Source of the DNA: Georgenia muralis
Lineage (GTDB): Bacteria > Actinomycetota > Actinomycetes > Actinomycetales > Actinomycetaceae
Assembly: GCF_003814705.1 (NCBI RefSeq)
Contig: NZ_RKRA01000001.1
Coordinates: forward strand, 2,728,001 to 2,792,000
Length of the DNA stretch: 64,000 nt
Reading direction: 5' to 3'
This document shows, piece after piece, positions 2,053 to 60,997 of this stretch; position 1 is the first letter of the stretch, and each line of letters starts with the position of its first letter. Below the pieces are notes generated by a model that saw only the letters and a program-made list of their open reading frames with translations, had not been told where the DNA came from and made no database searches. The translations under genes and the position numbers were made by a program.

Positions 2053-5000
2053 CTAGGGCAGCGCGAGGGTGTTGGACCAGCCCGACTGGGTCGTGTCACT
2101 GAAGGCGTGGACCCGGTAGAGGTAGGCCACCCCCGACGTGACGGTCTGGGTGAAGGTGCTGATGTTCGCCCCGACCGTGGCGTTCACGACGTTGCTGCCG
2201 TCGCTGTTGGTGCGCTGGATGAGGAACCCGGTCTCGTTGTCCGCGTTGTCGGTCCAGCTGAGGTTCACCGTGGAGGTCTTCTTGTTCTTCACGGTGAGGG
2301 TCCCGGTCAGGTTGGTCGGTGCCGAGACGGGGTCGCCCACGGTCTGTGGGGTGTTCCTGCTGTCGACTGTGATCGTCGGGAAGCCGCCACCCGGCGGGAT
2401 CTCGTTGAACGCCGGGTCGGAGTAGTCCCACGTGTCCCCGACCGTGTTGATCGCGTACACCTGGTACTCGTAGTTGTCCCTGGTGTTGCCGATGGCGTCG
2501 ACGTAAGAGGCGGGTCCGGTGGCCGCACCTGTCTCCGTCTTCGCGGTGGGCAGGGTCGTCAGGTTGACCCGGTCCTCGGTCTGGACCATGGCGACCTCGG
2601 TCCACGGACCGGTGGAGCCCGCAAGTCGGCGCTCGATCACGAAGGCAGTCTCGTTCTTCGACGTGTCGTTCCACGTCACGAGGTACTGCTGGTTCCGGCC
2701 GGAGCCGGACCGCGTGGCAACGATGTCCGTCGGGGCCGACGGGTTCACCGCCACCGCCTGGGTGCGCATCATGTCCATCTCCTCATGGCTGAGGATGTGG
2801 CAGTGGAGCACGTACTCCCACCCGTAGTTGACGTAGTGGTTTCGGACGTCGATCGGCTCGCCGTCGGGGTTGAAGGCCATGAGGGGCAGCCCCATCGCCT
2901 CCTGCTGGGTGGTGTTGGCGATGTAGGCCCCCGCCGGCATCGACGGGTCGAGCAGGCGGACGCTGTTGGGCAGGCCGCCCCACGCCTCGGGGATCGGCGG
3001 GATGATCGGCCGCACCGCGACGATCGTGTCCTCCAGCGGGCTGATGCGGACCGTGTCCTTCCAGCCGAGCTCGGTCGCCTCCGGCTTGCGGACGATGCCG
3101 TCCCAGCCGACGCGGTTGAGCAGCTGGACGTCGTACAGGTGGAAGTGCATGGGGTGGGTGTCCACCCCGTTGTGGGTGAACTTCCAGATCTGGGTGCCGT
3201 CGTCCGCCTGCGCGATCGGTGTGGCCTCCATGCCCGGTGGCAGCTCAATGCCGTCGAGCACCTCTGTGGGTGGCATCGAGAACCCGTACAGGATCATGTT
3301 CTGCAGACCTGCCTGGGCGTTCGGTGTTTCCACGCCCAGGAAGCCGCTCATGCGGCCGTACTCGCTCTCGAACGCCTCACCCATCTCGTCCTGGATCATC
3401 TTGGGCTTGAGGTTGACGGTCAGCCGTTCGTCCAAGGTCGCGTCGGTGCTCGTGACCGACGTGCGGAAGGGTGCACCCGGGGTGTCGTTGACGGTGGTGT
3501 CCTCGACCAGCCGGCCGAAGGTCAGCGAGGTGTCGTAGATCTGCACGGTGCCGTTGCCGGCCCCGTTGGTGGGGAACGAGGTGCCGTAGGCGGTGTTGTA
3601 CTCACCCTGGCCCACGACGATGGGCTTCTGCCCGGACTCGAACACGCCGGACCCGTCGCTCTGGTGCGCGAAGGCTGCCTCCAGTGCCGCCAGGTCGAAA
3701 GGTTCGGCAGCCGGGGCGTCGGCGACCTTGATCTGCATCATGGTGCGCGTGTTGGGTCCGTACCCGGCCAGGGTCGACGGGGCGCCGCCGGAGTCGCGGT
3801 AGTCGCCGTTGCCGGTGTAGTAGTCGTAGCGCGGGTCGCGTGCCGGGAAGGCGGCCGGGGCGTCGTTGTAGACGATGAGCGTCTGGCCCGCGTACTGCGA
3901 CAGGTCGACGACGACGTCGAAGCGTTCGGCCGGGGCGACGAGCAGCGAGTGCTGGTCGACGTTGCCGGCGTTGAACACGGTGGGGTCGTTGACCCATGTG
4001 GTGGGGTGGGCAGGAACGACGGCGGGAGCGGGCAGGAAGCCGCCCTCGTTCCCCATGACGATCCAGTCTGGGCCCTCGGTGCCGGCGGCCGGCGTCGGGA
4101 ACACCGTCGGGTCGTCAAGCGCCGCCGCGACCTCGGTCGGGTTCAGCGCCACCTCGGTGCAGGCGACGCCCGTGGACTCGGCCACCGGCGTGGGGTTGTT
4201 GAGGTCACAGACCGTGCCGTTCGCATCGACGGCCTGGTAGAGCGAGAGGTTCATGAAGCGGTCGTTCGCGGCGTTGAGGATCCGCAGCCGGTAGGGCTTG
4301 GGGTCGAGCGTCACCGTCGGGTACGCCTTGCCGTTGACGACCGGGGTGTCCATGAACGCCTCCATGCCCATGGAGTTGTACGGCGTGCTCGGCATGAGCG
4401 GCGGCTCGCACCACCCGGCCTCGGCGTCGCACAGCGGGTCGTAGTACGGGTTGTCGATCGGTGGGTACTCCACGTTGGTGGTGGGCGGCCAGAACCAGGG
4501 ACCGTAGGCCCAGCGACCGTAGGCGTTGACGCCGGAGGCGTCACCCGGGTTCTGCGCCGGCGAGTACACGTGCGGCAGCCAGAGGTTGCCCTCGCCGCCC
4601 CAGGCCGCCTTGTCCCAGGTCTCGTCCTGGAGGGCGAGCTGGGCATCGTTCGGCACGAAGGTCTTGTCCTGGAAGACGAGCGGAAGAGTGGCGTCGGCCC
4701 CGGGGATCGTCCCGGCGTCGACGAGCGCCTGCTCGGTGTCGTCCGTGATGATGTACGGCGCGGCCTCGCCGGCGTAGACGTTGAGGCGCGTGATGCCCCA
4801 TGAGTGGTCGTGGTAGACATCAGCCGCGCGCTCTGGGCGTTGGTGTAGTAGAAGGTCTGGACGCCGTCGGCCGGGTCATCCACGGCTTCCGGGTTCATGT
4901 CCGGCACGTTCTGCACGCTGACACCTTGGGGGAACGGGGTGTCCTCGGTCGCTGGGGTGATCCACTGGTGCGGCGTTCCGTCGGAGATCCACGGGGTGAT

Positions 5001-53769: not shown

Positions 53770-54756
53770 CTATCCGATGCCGCTGTAGGAGTGGAGGCTG
53801 TTGAAGACGAGGTTGACGAGGAAGTAGTTGCCGAGGATGGCGACGAAGCCGGCGATGGAGAGGTAGGCGGCCCGGCGTCCTTCCCAGCCGCGGGTGGCGC
53901 GGGCGTGAAGGTAGGCGGCGTAGATCACCCAGATGACGAAGGACCAGGTCTCCTTGGCGTCCCAGCCCCAGGGGCGGCCCCAGGCGTGCTCGGCCCAGAT
54001 CGCGCCGGCGACGAGGGTGAAGGTCCACATCATGAAGCCGACGGCGTTGAGCCGGAAGGCGAGGCGTTCGAGCTCGTCGGAGGAGGGCACGACGTCGAGC
54101 AGACGCCCCCAGAGACCGCGGGACCTGGTCCGCCCTTCCTCCTGGGCCAGAGTGGCCGTCACCGTCGCACCGTCGGCTTCTGACCCGGGGGAGGTGGGCG
54201 ACTGGGGTGGAGTGGCTGTGCGGGCCCGGCGGAGCTCGGCGCGTTCCTGGACGAGCTGGAGTGTCGAAAGGGTCGCTGCGATGGAGAAGACGCCGACGGC
54301 GAGGGTGGCGATGGAGACGTGGATGACGAGCCAGTAGGTCTGCAGGGCCGGTTGGAGGCCGTCGGCGCGGACGTAGAGGATGGAGACGGCGATACCGAGC
54401 ATGAGGAGCACGGGGCCGAGGACGAAGGTGCCGAGGAAGCGCATGTCCCGGCCGCGTTGCAGCGCTAGGAAGATCACCATCGCGACGAGGGTGAAGAGGA
54501 TGGAGAACTCGTACATGTTGGCCCAGGGCACCCGGGCGGCGGCGATGGCGCGGGTGATGACGCCGAGCAGGTGCAGGGCGAAGCCGAGCCAGGTGGTGGT
54601 CATCGCGATGCCGGCGGCGCGGCGGCGCCGGTCGCGGGGACCGCTCTCGCGCAAGCCGGAGAGGTCGATGGCGAAGGCGATGAAGCCGACGAGGTAGGCG
54701 GCCATCGCTCCGTAGATCAGTACCAGGCTGATCTGGCCCAGGGCGGTCTCGGGCAT
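53770..54756 (-). CDS. ccsB: Cytochrome c biogenesis protein CcsB (ResC)
   Basis: Heme-handling subunit of the system II cytochrome c synthase. 328 residues with about eight membrane segments. The WWD heme-binding motif reads WGRPWGWDAKETW, and flanking histidines are found in LQTYWLVIHVSIA and NSLHSYSG. The ATG at 54756 overlaps the resB stop (ATGA). A 60-residue cytoplasmic or periplasmic insert (TATPPQSPTSPG...) lies mid-protein. It converges on the ArsC-like gene. Confidence 0.95.
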   Translation of the reverse strand: MPETALGQISLVLIYGAMAAYLVGFIAFAIDLSGLRESGPRDRRRRAAGIAMTTTWLGFALHLLGVITRAIAAARVPWANMYEFSILFTLVAMVIFLALQRGRDMRFLGTFVLGPVLLMLGIAVSILYVRADGLQPALQTYWLVIHVSIATLAVGVFSIAATLSTLQLVQERAELRRARTATPPQSPTSPGSEADGATVTATLAQEEGRTRSRGLWGRLLDVVPSSDELERLAFRLNAVGFMMWTFTLVAGAIWAEHAWGRPWGWDAKETWSFVIWVIYAAYLHARATRGWEGRRAAYLSIAGFVAILGNYFLVNLVFNSLHSYSGIG

Positions 54757-56489
54757 CAGTGTCCTTTCCGGGCCGGGCTGTTGCCGGCGGGGTTGGAGGG
54801 AGTGGGTTCGGGTGCCCCGGCCCTGTCCTGCGCTGCCGATGCTGTGCTGGGCGATGGGTCGGCCGGGGTGCCGGCGTGCTGCAGCACCCGGGCGAGGTCG
54901 CGGGCCAGGCCGGGGTCGTCCCCGCGGGCCAGTGCCGCTCCCGAGACCACGGTGCCGCCGTCGGGGGTGTCGGCCAGCTTGACCCACAGGCGTCGGCGCG
55001 GCACGAACAGCGAGGCGAACAGGCCGAGCATGGCTGCGACGGAGGAGCCCAGCAGGTAGGGCAGGGAGGGGTCGTAGCGCAGGTCGAGGCCGACGAAGCG
55101 GGGGAGCGACTCGAACGTCACGGTTCCGAGCCCTTCCGGCAGCTCCACGCTCTCACCGGGGGAGAGGAACAGGGTCACCGGCTGCTGGCCGCCGTCGGCG
55201 GAGCCGGGGGAGCCGTCCTCGGCCTCTTCGTAGACCTGGCGCATGTCGTCGGTGTCGAGGACGTAGACGTTCTGGGGCACGGCCTCGTCCAGGCCGAGGT
55301 CACCGGCCCAGAGGGTGAGCACCAGCAGGGGGGCGTTGGGCTGGGGGTGGGCGGAGTATGCCCCGGAGCCGTCCTCAGCCATCATGGCGGTGGGCAGGAA
55401 GGCCCCGGTGAGCCCGAGCTGCTCGCCGGCGCTGACGTCGGGGACCTTGATGACGCCCCTGGAGGTGTAGACGGAGTCCTGCGGCAGGAACGGGACCGGC
55501 CCGGAGAAGGCCACCTCGTCCGCACCGTCGCGCACGGTGATTTTCGGGGCGAAGCCGTTGCCCATCAGGTACACGTTCGCACCGCCGGCGTTCATGGGGT
55601 CGTTGACCTTGATGACCTCCCGGCGGGTCGTGCCGTCCGGCTCGGTCACGCGGACGGTGGCGGCGAAGTCGCGGGCCAGGGCGTCGACGGTGAACTCCGA
55701 CTGGAACTCCTCCAGGGTGAAGGTGAAGGGCTCGAGGGAGTCGGGGTCGAAGAAGGTGCCCGGGTCGAAGGTGTCGTAGTCGAGGACGGAGTTGGCGAAG
55801 GACTCGCCTTCGACGACGATGAACTGCCCGCGGTAGCTGTAGAGCTGCCCGGCCGCCAGGGAGAGCAGGACGCCGATGAGGGAGAGGTGGAAGACGATAT
55901 TGCCGCTCTCGCGCAGGTACCCCCGCTCGGCGGTGATGCCCTCGGTGGTCACTGCCGCACGGTAGCGACCCTTCAGGGCGGCCAGGATGCTGGCCTGCAC
56001 CATGGGGCGGGGTTCGGTGACCGTGCGCTCCTCCCGCACTGGGAACCGGTGGAAGCTGCGGGGCACACGCGGCGGCTGGGCACGCAGGGCCCGCCAGTGC
56101 ACCCGGATGCGCGGCACGATGCACCCGATCAGCGAGGTGAACAGCAGCAGGTACACCGCGGCGAACCAGGGCGAGTTGTACACGTCGAAGAAGCCGAGCC
56201 GCTCGAGCCAGGGAGCCAGGCGCGGGTAGGTGGTGAAGTACTCGTCCACCCGTGCGGGGTCCTGCGGCTGCTGGGGGAAGAGCGACCCGGGCAGCGCGGT
56301 GACGGCCAGGAGCAGCAGCAGCATGATCGCGACCCGCATGCTGGTCAGCTGACGCCACATCCATCGCAGCCAACCGGCCAGGCCGAGCCGCGCCCCCTCC
56401 GGCGGGGCCGGGGCGCCCTGGGGGTCCTGCTGTCCCTGCCCCTCCTTGGAGCTCAGGTTGGTCGCGTCGACCTCGGTTGTGGTCTTCAT
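54756..56489 (-). CDS. resB: Cytochrome c biogenesis protein ResB
   Basis: Partner of CcsB in system II. 577 residues. Membrane segments include SMRVAIMLLLLLAVTALPGSLFPQ (with the family's LPGSLFPQ), AAVYLLLFTSLIGCIVPRI and NIVFHLSLIGVLLSLAAGQLYSYRG with the conserved His. A large extracytoplasmic domain follows, then a last membrane helix LLGSSVAAMLGLFASLFVPRRRLWVKL. It starts at ATG 56489, five bases after ccdA. Confidence 0.95.
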   Translation of the reverse strand: MKTTTEVDATNLSSKEGQGQQDPQGAPAPPEGARLGLAGWLRWMWRQLTSMRVAIMLLLLLAVTALPGSLFPQQPQDPARVDEYFTTYPRLAPWLERLGFFDVYNSPWFAAVYLLLFTSLIGCIVPRIRVHWRALRAQPPRVPRSFHRFPVREERTVTEPRPMVQASILAALKGRYRAAVTTEGITAERGYLRESGNIVFHLSLIGVLLSLAAGQLYSYRGQFIVVEGESFANSVLDYDTFDPGTFFDPDSLEPFTFTLEEFQSEFTVDALARDFAATVRVTEPDGTTRREVIKVNDPMNAGGANVYLMGNGFAPKITVRDGADEVAFSGPVPFLPQDSVYTSRGVIKVPDVSAGEQLGLTGAFLPTAMMAEDGSGAYSAHPQPNAPLLVLTLWAGDLGLDEAVPQNVYVLDTDDMRQVYEEAEDGSPGSADGGQQPVTLFLSPGESVELPEGLGTVTFESLPRFVGLDLRYDPSLPYLLGSSVAAMLGLFASLFVPRRRLWVKLADTPDGGTVVSGAALARGDDPGLARDLARVLQHAGTPADPSPSTASAAQDRAGAPEPTPSNPAGNSPARKGH

Positions 56490-56494
56490 TCTTC

Positions 56495-57316
56495 TCACAC
56501 CAGCGTCTGGGAGTTGGCGACCAGGCCCTGGAGATATCCCGACAGCAGGCCCCACAGTCCGCTGACCATGGCTATCCCAAGCACGACGAGCAGGGCCCCG
56601 CCGAGGCGCTGGATCGTCAGGCGGTGCCGGCGCAGGAGGGCGAGCACGCGGGTGGAGCGGGAGAGCAGCATGGCCAGGACCACGAAGGGCACGCCCAGCC
56701 CGAGGCTGTAGGCCAGCACCAGGACGGCGCCGCGGGCCGGGTCGGCCTCCCCGAAGGACAGGGTCAGGACAGCGGCCAGGGTGGGGCCCATGCACGGTGC
56801 CCACCCCAGCCCGAACACGACCCCGAGCAGCGGGGCACCCCACACGCCCTGGCGGGGCAGGGTGTGGATGCGGGCCTCGCGCTGCAGCACGGGCAGGCGC
56901 CCCAGGAATGCCATACCCATCACGATCACGAAGACCCCCAGGACCCGGGTGGCGACGTCGAGCCACGGCGCGAGGAGGATGCCGGCCCAGGAGAACACCA
57001 CGCCGAGCAGCACGAACACCGCGGTGAAGCCGGCCACGAAGAGCAGGACCCCGGCCAGCAGCTGGGCGGTGCCGGCGCGTCGGGACGGTCCTCGACGGCC
57101 GGTGACTGTGCTTGCTGGCGATGTCAGAGCGGCGCGGGGACCCGTTGTCGCGCCGGCCATCCCGCCCAGGTAGCCCACGTATCCGGGCAGCAGCGGCAGG
57201 ACGCAGGGGGAGGCGAAGGAGACGACCCCGGCGATGGCCGCGATCGGCAGGGCCGCGAGCATCGGCCCGGTCAGCACTAGGTTCGCGAATGCGTCACCGA
57301 TCTGGTCCAGGCTCAC
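56495..57316 (-). CDS. ccdA: CcdA thiol-disulfide transporter
   Basis: Carries reducing power across the membrane to ResA for reduction of apocytochrome c. 273 residues from GTG with six or seven membrane segments. The redox cysteines are in SFASPCVLPLLPGYVGYL (Cys38) and GWAPCMGPTLAAVL. An inserted Ser/Arg-rich loop (TSPASTVTGRRGPSRRAG) separates the first two helices. It starts one base after the resA stop. Confidence 0.95.
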   Translation of the reverse strand: MSLDQIGDAFANLVLTGPMLAALPIAAIAGVVSFASPCVLPLLPGYVGYLGGMAGATTGPRAALTSPASTVTGRRGPSRRAGTAQLLAGVLLFVAGFTAVFVLLGVVFSWAGILLAPWLDVATRVLGVFVIVMGMAFLGRLPVLQREARIHTLPRQGVWGAPLLGVVFGLGWAPCMGPTLAAVLTLSFGEADPARGAVLVLAYSLGLGVPFVVLAMLLSRSTRVLALLRRHRLTIQRLGGALLVVLGIAMVSGLWGLLSGYLQGLVANSQTLV

Positions 57317-57317
57317 T

Positions 57318-57920
57318 TCAGACCTCCTCTGTCAGGGCGTCGTCGATGAGTCCTCGCAGGATGGTCGGGTCGATCTGGCCCAGGATGCGGGCGGCGACCC
57401 GCCCCTGCCGGTCCAGGACGACGGTGGTGGGCATGGCCTGCAGGGGCACGAGCCCCTCGAAGGCGGCGACCCCGCGGGCGTCCTGGTCGTGCAGGGAGGG
57501 GTAGGGCACCTCGAAGGTGCGCTCGAAGGCCTGAGCGGTGCCGACGTCGTCGCGGGGGTTGATCCCGAGCATCTTCACCCCCTGCGGGGTGTAGTCGGTG
57601 TGGATGGCCTTCAGGTCCGGTGCCTCGGCGCGGCATGGCGGGCAGGCCGCGTACCAGAAGTTGACCACCACGACGTCACCGCGCCAGTCCGCCAGGTCGA
57701 GCCTCTCCCCGGAGTAGGTGGTGCCGACCAGGGAGATGGGGTCGGCGCGCTGGTCCGGGGCCCAGGTGGCGAAGGTGCCGTCCCCGGCCACGTACCCGGC
57801 GTCCGAGGCGGCGGCCGCGGCCGCGGCGGGGGACTGTGTGCCGCTGCCCGGGGCGCAGGATGCGAGCACGAACGCGGCGGCTGCCCCGAGGCCGGCGCTG
57901 ATCACGGCACGGCGACTGAG
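57318..57920 (-). pseudogene. resA: ResA thiol-disulfide lipoprotein, main part (5' end cut off by nested IS elements)
   Basis: Thioredoxin-like protein that reduces apocytochrome c. The redox motif is WYAACPPCRAE (CXXC), followed by GINPRDDVGTAQAF and the cis-Pro region LQAMPTTVVLD. The lipobox LASC follows SRRAVISAGLGAAAAFV, which looks like a twin-arginine-type lipoprotein signal. The natural start lies 3 kb away at 61090, beyond the IS1380 and IS110 elements. A GTG at 57905 could still start a shortened product with part of the signal, so some activity is possible. Confidence 0.85.
57916..57920. repeat. Left target duplication of the IS1380 element
   Basis: CTGAG, repeated at 60993-60997. 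Five bases is within the usual range for the IS1380 family. Confidence 0.85.
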
Positions 57921-57939
57921 CCCTGATCCGTAAGTTCTT

Positions 57940-58090
57940 GGGTGGCCCGGGAGGGCTGGGTGTGGCTGAGCCTTGATCGCCCGTTGATGGCTCCGATGGA
58001 TTGGCCGCCCGGTTCCTCCTGGGGCGCCTTGACTGCTGATTGAGATGCGCGTCCTGGTCGCTGTTTACGGATCTGTCGGCGGGGTGTTCC
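57940..58090 (+). ncRNA. Predicted IS110 bridge RNA
   Basis: In IS110-family elements such as IS621 a bridge RNA from the left end pairs with both target and donor DNA. Here four segments occur in the expected order. 57967-57979 matches the left target side (57917-57929) at 11 of 13 bases. 57994-58002 is complementary to the right target side (59361-59369) at 8 of 9. 58039-58045 equals the right end of the element (59355-59361, ATTGAGA). 58065-58073 is complementary to the left junction (57925-57933) at 9 of 9. The first pair lies inside a stem of 57946-57954 with 58015-58023 (nine pairs, one G-U), and the second inside a stem of 58025-58033 with 58075-58081 (TT bulge). Transcript ends are estimates. 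Confidence 0.75.
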
Positions 58091-58132
58091 TTCGGGCCAT
58101 GGCAATCGCTCGTGTGCTCGAAGGAGGAGTTG

Positions 58133-59347
58133 ATGAAGCAACGGATCGCGCCCGGGTGGGCTGGTGTCGACGTCGGTAAGGGTCATCACTGGATCTGCCT
58201 GATCGACGAGGCCGGCACCACAGTCTGGTCGACGAAGGTGGTCAACGACGAGGCCGCCATCCTCGACGCGATCGCCGGCGTCCTTGGCCACGCCGACGAG
58301 GTCGTCTGGGGAGTAGACGTCACCGGGACCATGTCGGGACTGCTGCTGGCACTGCTGGCAGCCCACGGTCAGCGGGTGAGATACGTCCCCGGCCGCACGG
58401 TGAACCAGATGGCCAGCGCCTACCGCGGTGAGGCCAAGACCGACGCCCGCGATGCCTACGTCATCGCCGAGACCCTGCGACACCGCGGCGATCTACAGGA
58501 CGTCGAGGTCGCCACCGCGCTGGTGACCGAGCTGCGGCTACTGGTGACCCACCGCACCGACCTGGTCGGTGACCGGGTCCGCGTGGTCAACCGGCTCCGC
58601 GACGTGCTCAGCGGCTACTTCCCTGCGCTGGAGCGGTCCTTCGACTACGCCCATAGCCGGGGTGCGTTGGTCCTGCTGACGGGCTACCAGACGCCGCAGG
58701 CGATCCGCCGGACGGGTGAGTCGCGGTTGCGGGCATGGCTGGTCAAGCGGAAGGTGCGCAGCGCCGACCAGATCGCTGCAGCTGCGCTCGGTGCGGCCAA
58801 GGCCCAGCAGACCGTCGTGCCCGGGCAGGATGTGGCGGCCAGCATCGTGGCCGACCTCGCCGCTCAGCTCCTGGCGCTCGGCGCGCGGATCTCCGACCTC
58901 GACGCCCGGATCACCACCACCTTCCGCGCGCACCCCCAGGCCGAGATCATCGAGTCCCTGCCCGGCATGGGACCGATCCTCGGTGCCGAGCTGGTAGCCG
59001 CCGCAGGGGACCTTGCCGCCTATGCGAACGCCGGACGGCTCGCCTCGGCCGCCGGGCTTGTCCCGGTCCCGCGGGACTCTGGCCGGCGCACCGGGAACCT
59101 GCACCGGCCGATGCGCTACTCGCGCAAGCTGCGCAGAGTGTTCTACCTCTCCGCCTCAGCCGCCATGATGCGCGAGGGCCCCAACCGCGACTACTACCTC
59201 AAGAAGCGCGGACAAGGCCACGGGCACGTCCAAGCGCTCATCGCCTTGGCGCGCCGACGCGTCGACGTCCTATGGGCCCTGCTCCGCGACAACCGACCCT
59301 TCGAACTCGCCCCACCCTCGCGAGAACCGATGGCCCAAACGGCTTGA
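58133..59347 (+). CDS. IS110-family recombinase (DEDD transposase)
   Basis: 404 residues from ATG 58133 after AAGGAGGAG. The N-terminal RuvC-like domain has GVDVGKGHHWIC (first Asp), GVDVTGTMSG and EAKTDARDAYVIAE. The C-terminal Transposase_20 domain has IIESLPGMGPILGAEL and LASAAGLVPVPRDSGRR with the catalytic Ser region. The frame is intact, so the element may be active. In IS110 elements this protein is guided by a bridge RNA, a candidate for which lies directly upstream. Confidence 0.95.
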   Translation: MKQRIAPGWAGVDVGKGHHWICLIDEAGTTVWSTKVVNDEAAILDAIAGVLGHADEVVWGVDVTGTMSGLLLALLAAHGQRVRYVPGRTVNQMASAYRGEAKTDARDAYVIAETLRHRGDLQDVEVATALVTELRLLVTHRTDLVGDRVRVVNRLRDVLSGYFPALERSFDYAHSRGALVLLTGYQTPQAIRRTGESRLRAWLVKRKVRSADQIAAAALGAAKAQQTVVPGQDVAASIVADLAAQLLALGARISDLDARITTTFRAHPQAEIIESLPGMGPILGAELVAAAGDLAAYANAGRLASAAGLVPVPRDSGRRTGNLHRPMRYSRKLRRVFYLSASAAMMREGPNRDYYLKKRGQGHGHVQALIALARRRVDVLWALLRDNRPFELAPPSREPMAQTA

Positions 59348-59498
59348 CAAAGTCATTGAGAATCCACCGACGTGGTGGGGTGGTCGCTGATCTGGTGGCG
59401 TGCTCGGGATCGCGGGTCTTTGGGCGTGGTGGGGCTGCCGGTTTGTGCCGGCTCTTCCACGTCGGGTTCCTCGGTTCGTGCCCGTGGGGGCTGGGTGG

Positions 59499-60872
59499 TC
59501 AGGTCGCGGTGGCCGGTGGTGGTCCGGTGGCGGCGGTGTGGAGCGCGGTCCAGGCCTGTGCCCAGGCCCAGTGGGCGGGCAGGTGCAGGATGAGCCGGCG
59601 GCCGGTGGAGGCGATCCGGGCGGGGACGTTGACGATCCGGCGGCGCAGGGTGGCCCACCGGGCCGTGGCCATGTTCGCGGCGACGGCGGCGGCTCGGGCG
59701 ATGTTGAACGCGATCGTCGCCATCGCCACCCACGCCGCGTTCGCCGCGTACTTCCCCGACGGCAGGTGCGCCAGGGGCCCGTCCTTGAGCTCGGCGATGA
59801 CCTGCTCGATGACCGCGTGCCCGCGGTGGCGCTGGTCGGCCTGAATGGTGTCCAGGTCGGAGTTGGTGATGAACGCGTGGTGGCGGTAGGTCGCGAACAG
59901 CTCGCCCTGCTCGCTGCCGTCACTGGCCAGGGGCTGGAGCCGTCGGACGCGGCGCACGATCAGCCGGCAGGTCACGCGCTCGGCCTTGCGGCGACGGGTG
60001 AACGCGACGAAGGGGACCTCGGCGACCTCGGCGTCGGAGACCCACCGCTGCTCGGCCTCATCCCAGACCGCATGGGGGTACTTGATCGGGGTCCAGGCGT
60101 CCTCGCCGATGCCCGCGATGGCCGCCTTGGCCTGGGGGTTCATCCGCACCGTCACCGAGAACCACGCCCCGTGGCGCAGGGCGGTGGCGACGAAGGCGTG
60201 GCCGTAGTACGCCGAGTCCGCCCGGCACAGCACCGGTCCGGCCACGCCCGCGGTCCGGGCGGTCCCCAGGGCCTGGGCGAGGAGCTGGCCGGCCCCGGTG
60301 TGCGAGGCGACGTTCCCGCGCCGTAGCCGGGCCCGCACGATCACCGGCGCCGCCACCTCCGTGGAGACGGTGGCGAGCTGGACGTTCAGGCCACGCACCC
60401 CGGAGTAGCCGTACGCCGCGGCCTGCTTGGCGTACCCGTGAACCTCCCGGATCGTGTCATCGACATCGACGAACGCGATGTCCTCCGTGCCAGCGCCGCT
60501 CACCAGGGCGGGAACCTTCCGAGCGAGCCCTGCCAGCAGCGCGCCGCTGATCTTGTCGAGCTGCTGGACGTGACCGTGGGTGAACGAGCGCAGGAACGTG
60601 CCCAGCGTCGAGGGCGCCCGGACCCCGGCGAAGACTCGGCCCATCCCGCCATGACGCAGCAGGTCCAGGTCATCGATGCAGTCCGCACCGGCGAGCATCC
60701 CACCGACCACGCCCGCCGTCTTGACCCCCGCGTTGGGCGAGGGCACCGTCAACCCCTCGAGCAGGCCGTACAAACCCGCGGACTCCGCCAGCCGCAACGC
60801 CGGGACCAGACCCGCCGCCGACACCAGATTGGACTCATCGAAGACCGGTCGAATCGTGTGAGAAGGTTTCAC
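59499..60872 (-). CDS. IS1380-family transposase
   Basis: 457 residues from GTG, full length. DDE-type catalytic residues can be placed in VDVDDTIREVHGY, LCRADSAYYGH and VIEQVIAELKDGPLAHLPSG. The C-terminal NAAWVAMATIAFNIARAAAV helix is typical. The protein is intact, but the element's left repeat is broken by the IS110, so it probably cannot move itself any longer, though it could act on other copies. Confidence 0.95.
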   Translation of the reverse strand: MKPSHTIRPVFDESNLVSAAGLVPALRLAESAGLYGLLEGLTVPSPNAGVKTAGVVGGMLAGADCIDDLDLLRHGGMGRVFAGVRAPSTLGTFLRSFTHGHVQQLDKISGALLAGLARKVPALVSGAGTEDIAFVDVDDTIREVHGYAKQAAAYGYSGVRGLNVQLATVSTEVAAPVIVRARLRRGNVASHTGAGQLLAQALGTARTAGVAGPVLCRADSAYYGHAFVATALRHGAWFSVTVRMNPQAKAAIAGIGEDAWTPIKYPHAVWDEAEQRWVSDAEVAEVPFVAFTRRRKAERVTCRLIVRRVRRLQPLASDGSEQGELFATYRHHAFITNSDLDTIQADQRHRGHAVIEQVIAELKDGPLAHLPSGKYAANAAWVAMATIAFNIARAAAVAANMATARWATLRRRIVNVPARIASTGRRLILHLPAHWAWAQAWTALHTAATGPPPATAT

Positions 60873-60992
60873 TTACGAGGTGTCCCTCCTGGACAGGCTG
60901 ATCGAGACGTCGCAATCCCGATCCTCCCTGCTCAGGAGGGCATTCTCGTTCTACGCCACGCTCACCCACCGACCCACACCGGTGGATCAGGG

Positions 60993-60997
60993 CTGAG
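60993..60997. repeat. Right target duplication of the IS1380 element
   Basis: CTGAG, second copy of the sequence at 57916-57920. Joining the two flanks through one copy restores the resA frame. Confidence 0.85.

Follow-up and report, generated by a model that had tools for sequence, protein, structure and literature searches.

A putative bridge RNA in an IS110-group element of Georgenia muralis points at the terminal repeats of IS1380 elements

The Georgenia muralis genome (4.14 Mb, one contig) carries an IS110-group insertion sequence whose left end appears to encode a bridge RNA with a guide pointing at the ends of another family of insertion sequences, IS1380. Judged from a 64,000-nucleotide stretch of this genome (the window) and from related loci, we put the probability of this reading at roughly 0.93. 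In the window, the IS110 element splits one IS1380 terminal repeat, with CTGAG-CCCTGATC to the left and CACCG to the right, and an intact repeat stands at the far end of the entered element (Table 1). The genes at 53770-57905, downstream of the IS1380::IS110 pair, are from their ORF translations presumably of the cytochrome c biogenesis/thioredoxin kind.

The recombinase belongs to the IS110 group by its two domains (PF01548, E 6.6e-49; PF02371, E 8.4e-19). Its KTDARD motif and DSG serine align with ISCro4, which together with IS621 is its solved relative by sequence. The left non-coding end is long (204 bases, starting at 57929 and running up to the start codon at 58133) and the right one short: with 15 bases from the stop codon to the core, it lacks the long right non-coding region in which elements of the IS1111 group hold their guide RNA. 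The CT core of IS621 and its close orthologues is likewise not found, the window core being TC, and we class the element within the IS110 group but not as an IS621 orthologue.

Table 1. Features of the IS110 element and of the IS1380 element it has entered, in window coordinates
Feature	Position	Strand	Remark
IS1380 5-bp target duplication CTGAG	57916..57920	+	repeated at the far IS1380 end, 60993-60997
Left target GCCCTGA and core TC	57920..57928	+	begins with one base of the CTNAG duplication and continues into the outer end of an IS1380 terminal repeat
IS110 element, including both TC core copies	57927..59364	+	1438 bp; identical in six genome copies
Right donor CGTAA, left tip of the IS110 element	57929..57933	+	pairs with the right donor guide
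-10-like TAAGTT of a predicted circle-junction promoter	57931..57936	+	promoter-like geometry in relatives
Predicted bridge RNA region, target loop then donor loop	57937..58090	+	ends approximate; from fold and alignment
Left target guide (LTG) GCCTTGATC, including core	57970..57978	+	9/9 paired, counting one U.G wobble
Right target guide (RTG) CGATG	57994..57998	+	one mismatch to right target CACCG
Core-pairing GA of the target loop	57999..58000	+	from guide-junction register
Target-loop handshake TT	58001..58002	+	pairs with donor AA beside the core
Left donor guide (LDG) TTGAGA	58040..58045	+	from covariation test
Right donor guide (RDG) TTACG	58065..58069	+	from covariation test
Core-pairing GA and donor-loop handshake TC	58070..58073	+	handshake pairs with target GA
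IS110 recombinase, 404 aa (DEDD_Tnp_IS110 and Transposase_20)	58133..59347	+	domain match
-35-like TTGACA of a predicted circle-junction promoter	59344..59349	+	overlaps the recombinase stop codon
Left donor TTGAGAA, right tip of the IS110 element	59356..59362	+	from comparison of relatives
Right target CACCG	59365..59369	+	IS1380 terminal repeat, inner portion
IS1380-type transposase (PF13701) of the entered element	59502..60872	-	domain match
Far, unoccupied IS1380 terminal repeat CTCAGCCCTGATCCACCG, duplication included	60980..60997	-	read from sequence

A sequence-only reading of the window had placed four guide matches in the left end of the element, and all four are present on direct reading. 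For the left target guide, it had proposed the thirteen bases 57967-57979, and TGAGCCTTGATCG does match 57917-57929 (TGAGCCCTGATCC) at 11 of 13 positions; the extent, however, had to be revised to the nine bases 57970-57978. In the left-end alignment, the GGCT (partly also the GA) 5' of 57970 is common to relatives with other targets. The proposed right target guide at 57994-58002 (CGATGGATT) agrees with the reverse complement of 59361-59369 (AATCCACCG) at 8 of 9 positions, the left donor guide at 58039-58045 (ATTGAGA) equals the right end at 59355-59361, and the right donor guide at 58065-58073 (TTACGGATC) is the exact complement of the left junction 57925-57933. The likeness that had been drawn to the strand pattern of the IS621 model also stands, with same-sense left guides, complementary right guides and the target loop preceding the donor loop. 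The matches of both right guides to the junctions take in the core and the handshake nucleotides, and both 3'-side guides end in nucleotides predicted to pair, as a handshake, with the recombined junctions. A perfect right target guide, CGGTG, is found in the relatives L046, L047, L048 and L054, where the window has CGATG with its one mismatch.

Guide-like matches in the right order occurred in none of 5000 dinucleotide shuffles of 57937-58132, at thresholds that were set after the matches had been seen (at most one mismatch each for left target, right junction and left donor; left junction exact). Single matches were common in the same shuffles for the left target (438), right target (453) and left donor guides (788), and the right donor guide was matched twice. 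Over the window, Rfam at gathering thresholds returned no bridge-RNA family and only three rRNA matches.

The copies of the element in its own genome indicate what it enters. A DNA search gave 12 matches, comprising six full copies, one split in two, one truncated and three IS1380-only pieces. Among the eight IS110 copies, the six full ones are identical over 1438 bp; beyond the known copies, a protein search of the genome found only three distant matches (28-31% identity). All eight left junctions read CTNAGCC(CT or TC)GATCC, that is, an IS1380-type repeat with its CTNAG duplication, with CT in five copies and TC in three, and with N being G, C, C, C, C, T, A and G. IS1380 sequence follows on the right side of seven copies, as six bodies and a truncated seventh; the truncated IS110 copy (L083) lacks its right side, so that only its left junction is informative. 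The six bodies fall into three types, 93-100%, 60% and 55% identical to the window transposase, and the one at L078 is interrupted. In L082, the copy that is split, a truncated type-C IS1380 end follows on the right, as seen by eye in the first 200 bases. In all six IS1380::IS110 pairs with both ends present, the CTNAG duplication of 5 bp agrees at the two IS1380 ends, and these six bodies, with the truncated seventh, bear out the suggested rule that IS1380 terminal repeats are the target. Nesting occurs both ways at L082:3362-4996, where an IS110 copy in an IS1380 end is in turn interrupted by an IS1380 element.

Of the 20 genomic occurrences of the pattern AGCCNNGATCCACC, 19 are at IS1380 ends and one is elsewhere (L088); the reversed control pattern has none. 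Counting the occupied ones, 8 of the 27 IS1380 ends of this kind hold an IS110 element. The idea that one IS1380 end only is used was dropped, as both ends are used.

Fifteen foreign loci have the guide type of the window (L045-L058 and L064; L060 is the same element as L045). In all 12 with a readable, undamaged tip (L045, L047-L056 and L064), the left junction is GCCNNGATC, where NN is TC, CT, CG, TG or CA. Homologues with the same guide at unrelated sites had been named as the counterexample to look for; none was found among the copies fetched, and eight own and 12 foreign left junctions conform. IS1380 transposase sequence lies to the right within about 400 bases in nine of the 15 loci (L045, L047, L049-L052, L056-L058), and neither an IS1380 body nor a MITE-like element was found at the right end in four of them (L048, L053, L055 and L064). 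The right target deviates from CACCG in L048, L050, L053 and L056. L051, L052, L054 and L055 have CG, TG or CA at target positions 4-5, which wobble covers incompletely. Window-type IS110 elements also appear to target a short element of some 140 bp, seemingly a MITE, whose ends resemble those of IS1380 (L046:1441-1591, L054:5221-5371). At L055:3804-3990, a loss of 16 bases from the target loop removes the first two positions of the left target guide, and the left junction is still IS1380-like; this element is perhaps defective.

It is unlikely that the copies carry no information on target choice because a single insertion was copied with a loaded IS1380 element moving as a unit. The IS110 element is also found in IS1380 types only 55-60% identical in protein, it occupies the other IS1380 end in L080 and L081 and a truncated type-C end in L082, and window-type IS110 elements sit in IS1380 or MITE-like ends of other genomes. 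On the other side, the IS110 copies are identical and all four loaded type-A IS1380 copies hold IS110 at the same end, that of the transposase 3' terminus, and movement as a unit may explain part of these type-A copies.

As the left and right junctions of the window share ATCC, the window by itself leaves AT, TC and CC possible, and AT or CC, with guide boundaries moved by one base, was first read from the window alone. That reading was dropped after L094, whose junctions share only TC, and L095, whose junctions share AGC, and it is now very improbable. By comparison of these sequences, the core dinucleotide is TC (57927-57928 and 59363-59364). A TC core, or GC in L095 and L104, gave the same best register in all 31 distinct guide-junction pairs, with the poorest fit in L110, although this register is partly built in because the regular expression for the junction was anchored on TC or GC; the guide side was anchored independently. 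An excerpt of the IS621 study (PMC11208158) gives CT as the core, with the second T almost invariant, and the clade of the window therefore differs from IS621 in its core.

Outside the core, the commonest difference between guide and target over 28 distinct pairs was a guide T against a target C, that is U.G, at 14 of 32, in a count for which the alignment was picked to maximise pairing including wobble, which favours this result. The window-type guide has U at positions 4-5 and can pair with both CT and TC repeats through U.G wobble. We infer that the placement of these U residues may have been selected.

The guides were compared with insertion sites across relatives whose left ends could be aligned with that of the window. 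A search of genome contigs gave 15 loci, 12 of which entered the guide tests, the partial L057-L059 being left out. At the level of the order, at least 15 of 396 genomes had a match, including that of the window; they gave 17 foreign loci, of which four were tested (L060-L063), L064 served for junctions only, and L065-L076, partial or 35-51% identical, stayed outside the guide tests. At the level of the class, at least 16 of 394 genomes had a match, again including that of the window, and all 19 further foreign loci were tested. Both searches scored 4 candidates per genome, so that copies may be missed. Matches were present in 46 plasmid records, and ten regions were taken from among the matches listed. 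A family-level search around G121 had a match in 1 of 13 genomes, and viral contigs gave nine pattern matches with no relative among them. Left junction and target loop could both be read in 40 of the resulting 46 loci (45 and the window); L046, L055, L061, L090, L099 and L101 were dropped. The 40 loci collapse to 21 guide strings of 15 bases, which contain 19 different nine-base guides, as those of the window and L054, and of L109 and L111, are alike.

Among relatives of 47-100% identity, guides of every kind match their own DNA more closely than that of the other elements. The left target guide, for which the best offset within the guide string was taken for own and cross pairs alike, pairs at 8.10 of 9 positions with its own target and 6.23 across elements (n = 21), or 7.14 and 4.85 without wobble (n = 21). 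The right donor guide, which was also allowed to slide, scores 4.95 of 5 against 3.80 (n = 21). In fixed register, the right target guide reaches 3.85 of 5 against 1.67 (n = 20, L102 being without a right end), and the left donor guide 5.89 of 6 against 5.33 (n = 18, L100 and L110 having been left out for their irregular right ends). The handshake base immediately 3' of the target-loop core, likewise in fixed register, pairs with donor position 7, the last donor base before the core, in 18 of 20 cases against a cross value of 0.23, with all four bases occurring and with misses in L100 and L110. The covariation of guides and insertion sites that the sequence-only reading had proposed as a check is thus found in five own-versus-cross tests (LTG, RTG, handshake, LDG and RDG), in each of which none of 20,000 permutations, which keep shared descent in, reached the own value. 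In the permutation test of the core, 1062 of 20,000 were as high as observed. The own site was strictly the best for only 10 of 21 left target guides, because many relatives have alike, start-codon-like targets. Left target pairing was poor in L093 (6/9) and in L092, L097, L110, L062 and L063 (7/9), and the donor-loop handshake, judged by eye, fits only part of the relatives.

RNAalifold on 21 left ends gave a target-loop stem of 16 pairs, 10 of which have compensatory changes, and the left end of the window folds with z = -3.0. All four helices together are paired in 98.2% of cells (shuffles, 87.4%), with the structure predicted on the same alignment, which favours pairing. There are 61 double-changed cells (shuffles, 17.5), distributed as 40 in the target-loop stem, 20 in tip-guide pairing and 1 elsewhere. 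The helix that RNAalifold forms separately between the left tip and the right donor guide is guide-DNA pairing, not RNA structure. With the target-loop stem paired in 98.2% of its cells over the 21 left ends, those 40 double changes included, the absence of a conserved fold, which would have counted against a bridge RNA, was not observed. The claim that each guide pair is enclosed by its own stem holds for the target loop, but the donor-loop stem is weaker (-8.5 kcal/mol from RNAalifold of the donor part). Even with this weaker stem, the left end appears to have what defines a bridge RNA, two guide loops that co-vary with target and donor. It is scarcely credible that the recombinase itself recognises the IS1380 repeat and that the likeness of the left end to the target is due to chance or common origin. 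Shuffled left ends do often contain single guide-like matches, but the guides change with the sites across 21 guide strings while the recombinases are still homologous, and the pairing of the target-loop stem is kept through double changes.

A mechanism for guided entry can be proposed on these observations. On excision, the ends of the element would join into a circle, as the family suggests, and the joined tips would form a promoter-like sequence. In the window, joining the ends on paper gives TTGACA-N17-TAAGTT, which is promoter-like by sequence criterion; TTGAnn-N17-TAnnnn is present at the joined ends in 33 of 38 loci, several of which are copies of one element, and was not found in L062, L063, L093, L100 and L110. 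This junction promoter would transcribe the bridge RNA from the long left end, plus the recombinase, which would bind it. The first RNA loop would pair with both strands of the target GCC(N)(N)GA-TC-CACCG and the second with the joined element ends TTGAGAA-TC-CGTAA. Strand exchange would then take place at the common TC core, aided by handshake nucleotides pairing with the new junctions. As this target is the IS1380 terminal repeat plus the last base of the CTNAG duplication, the element would enter IS1380 ends, and the insertion may immobilise the IS1380 element.

Relatives with other guides have other sites. In 13 of the 19 guide strings outside the type of the window, an ATG directed away from the element lies 5-9 bases past the core, and 12 of these 13 open a frame of at least 48 codons; no such ATG is present in the other six (L062, L063, L096, L097, L100 and L102). 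Most relatives therefore aim at gene starts and the lineage of the window at IS1380 ends. An annotated gene start lies 7-8 bases from the core in L109, L111, L114, L116 and L117; in L113, it is 63 bases off, and L110 carries no annotation. The elements at L091, L103, L106, L108 and L109-L118 insert just 5' of an ATG, with guides that spell that junction, probably between the ribosome-binding site and the start codon. IS900 and its relatives reportedly choose translation starts. Excerpts of PMC8141618 give insertion motifs, with sites mostly outside coding sequences. In L062:2700-4110 and in L063 (47-48% identity), the conserved right end lies about 1.4 kb past the first transposase. In L062, a second ORF (3005-4084), IS110-like by eye, stands between this transposase and the right end, and a bridge-RNA element may thus carry two recombinase genes.

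IS4321 and IS5075, of the IS1111 group, reportedly target the terminal inverted repeats of Tn21-family transposons. Compared by title, they share with the window element that a DEDD-family insertion sequence enters the terminal inverted repeats of another transposon, and they differ in their group and in the host transposon. Elements annotated as IS116 family (Streptomyces clavuligerus, L117) and IS2112 family (Rhodococcus, L116) resemble the window element, with 62-63% identical recombinases, the same left-end architecture and the core TC; they differ in their guides and in insertion sites just 5' of an annotated start codon, not at IS1380 ends.

Bridge RNAs of IS110 elements have been published with thousands of examples (PMC11208160; Durrant 2024), and handshake pairing is described for IS621 (PMC11208158; Hiraizumi 2024). 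In the parts of these two papers available to us, IS621 resembles the window element in its long left end, its target loop followed by a donor loop, its handshake nucleotides and its two-domain recombinase. The sequence similarity of the two recombinases is weak (31.9 bits), and IS621 targets REP sequences where the window element targets IS1380 repeats. For ISEc21, also of the IS110 group, excerpts describe an upstream RNA and a target within another insertion sequence, which differs from the present case in being a conserved coding stretch of IS3-family transposase genes and not a terminal repeat; natural redirection is described there in its relative ISMch6 (Siddiquee 2024, PMC11187229). 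The available part of a report on a Kocuria genome (PMC12500396) mentions an IS110 element that has a seekRNA region. No report of IS1380 ends as an IS110 target was found in the titles and abstract beginnings of the open-licence papers listed. The mechanism, the family and the precedent for targeting another transposon's repeats (IS4321/IS5075 in Tn21) are thus known already. What appears to be new, from the sequences compared, is the IS1380 target, the TC/GC core and an independent confirmation, on a small scale, that handshake bases co-vary.

The set offers a natural test of bridge-RNA rules: copies of one identical element stand in two variants of the target, the guides of its relatives are re-aimed, and the handshake base tracks the donor through all four letters. 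The TC/GC core widens a system characterised with CT and bears on the choice of recombinases for genome engineering. As to how the preference arose, we can offer a tentative account that has somewhat less than an even chance of being right: a lineage mostly inserting before start codons would have re-aimed its guide at the repeats of a competing family of insertion sequences, with U residues letting wobble cover more than one IS1380 subfamily. The result would be an RNA-guided brake on IS1380 and a harmless landing site that multiplies itself. The suggested strategy is that a mobile element landing in another mobile element spares the host and may restrain a rival.
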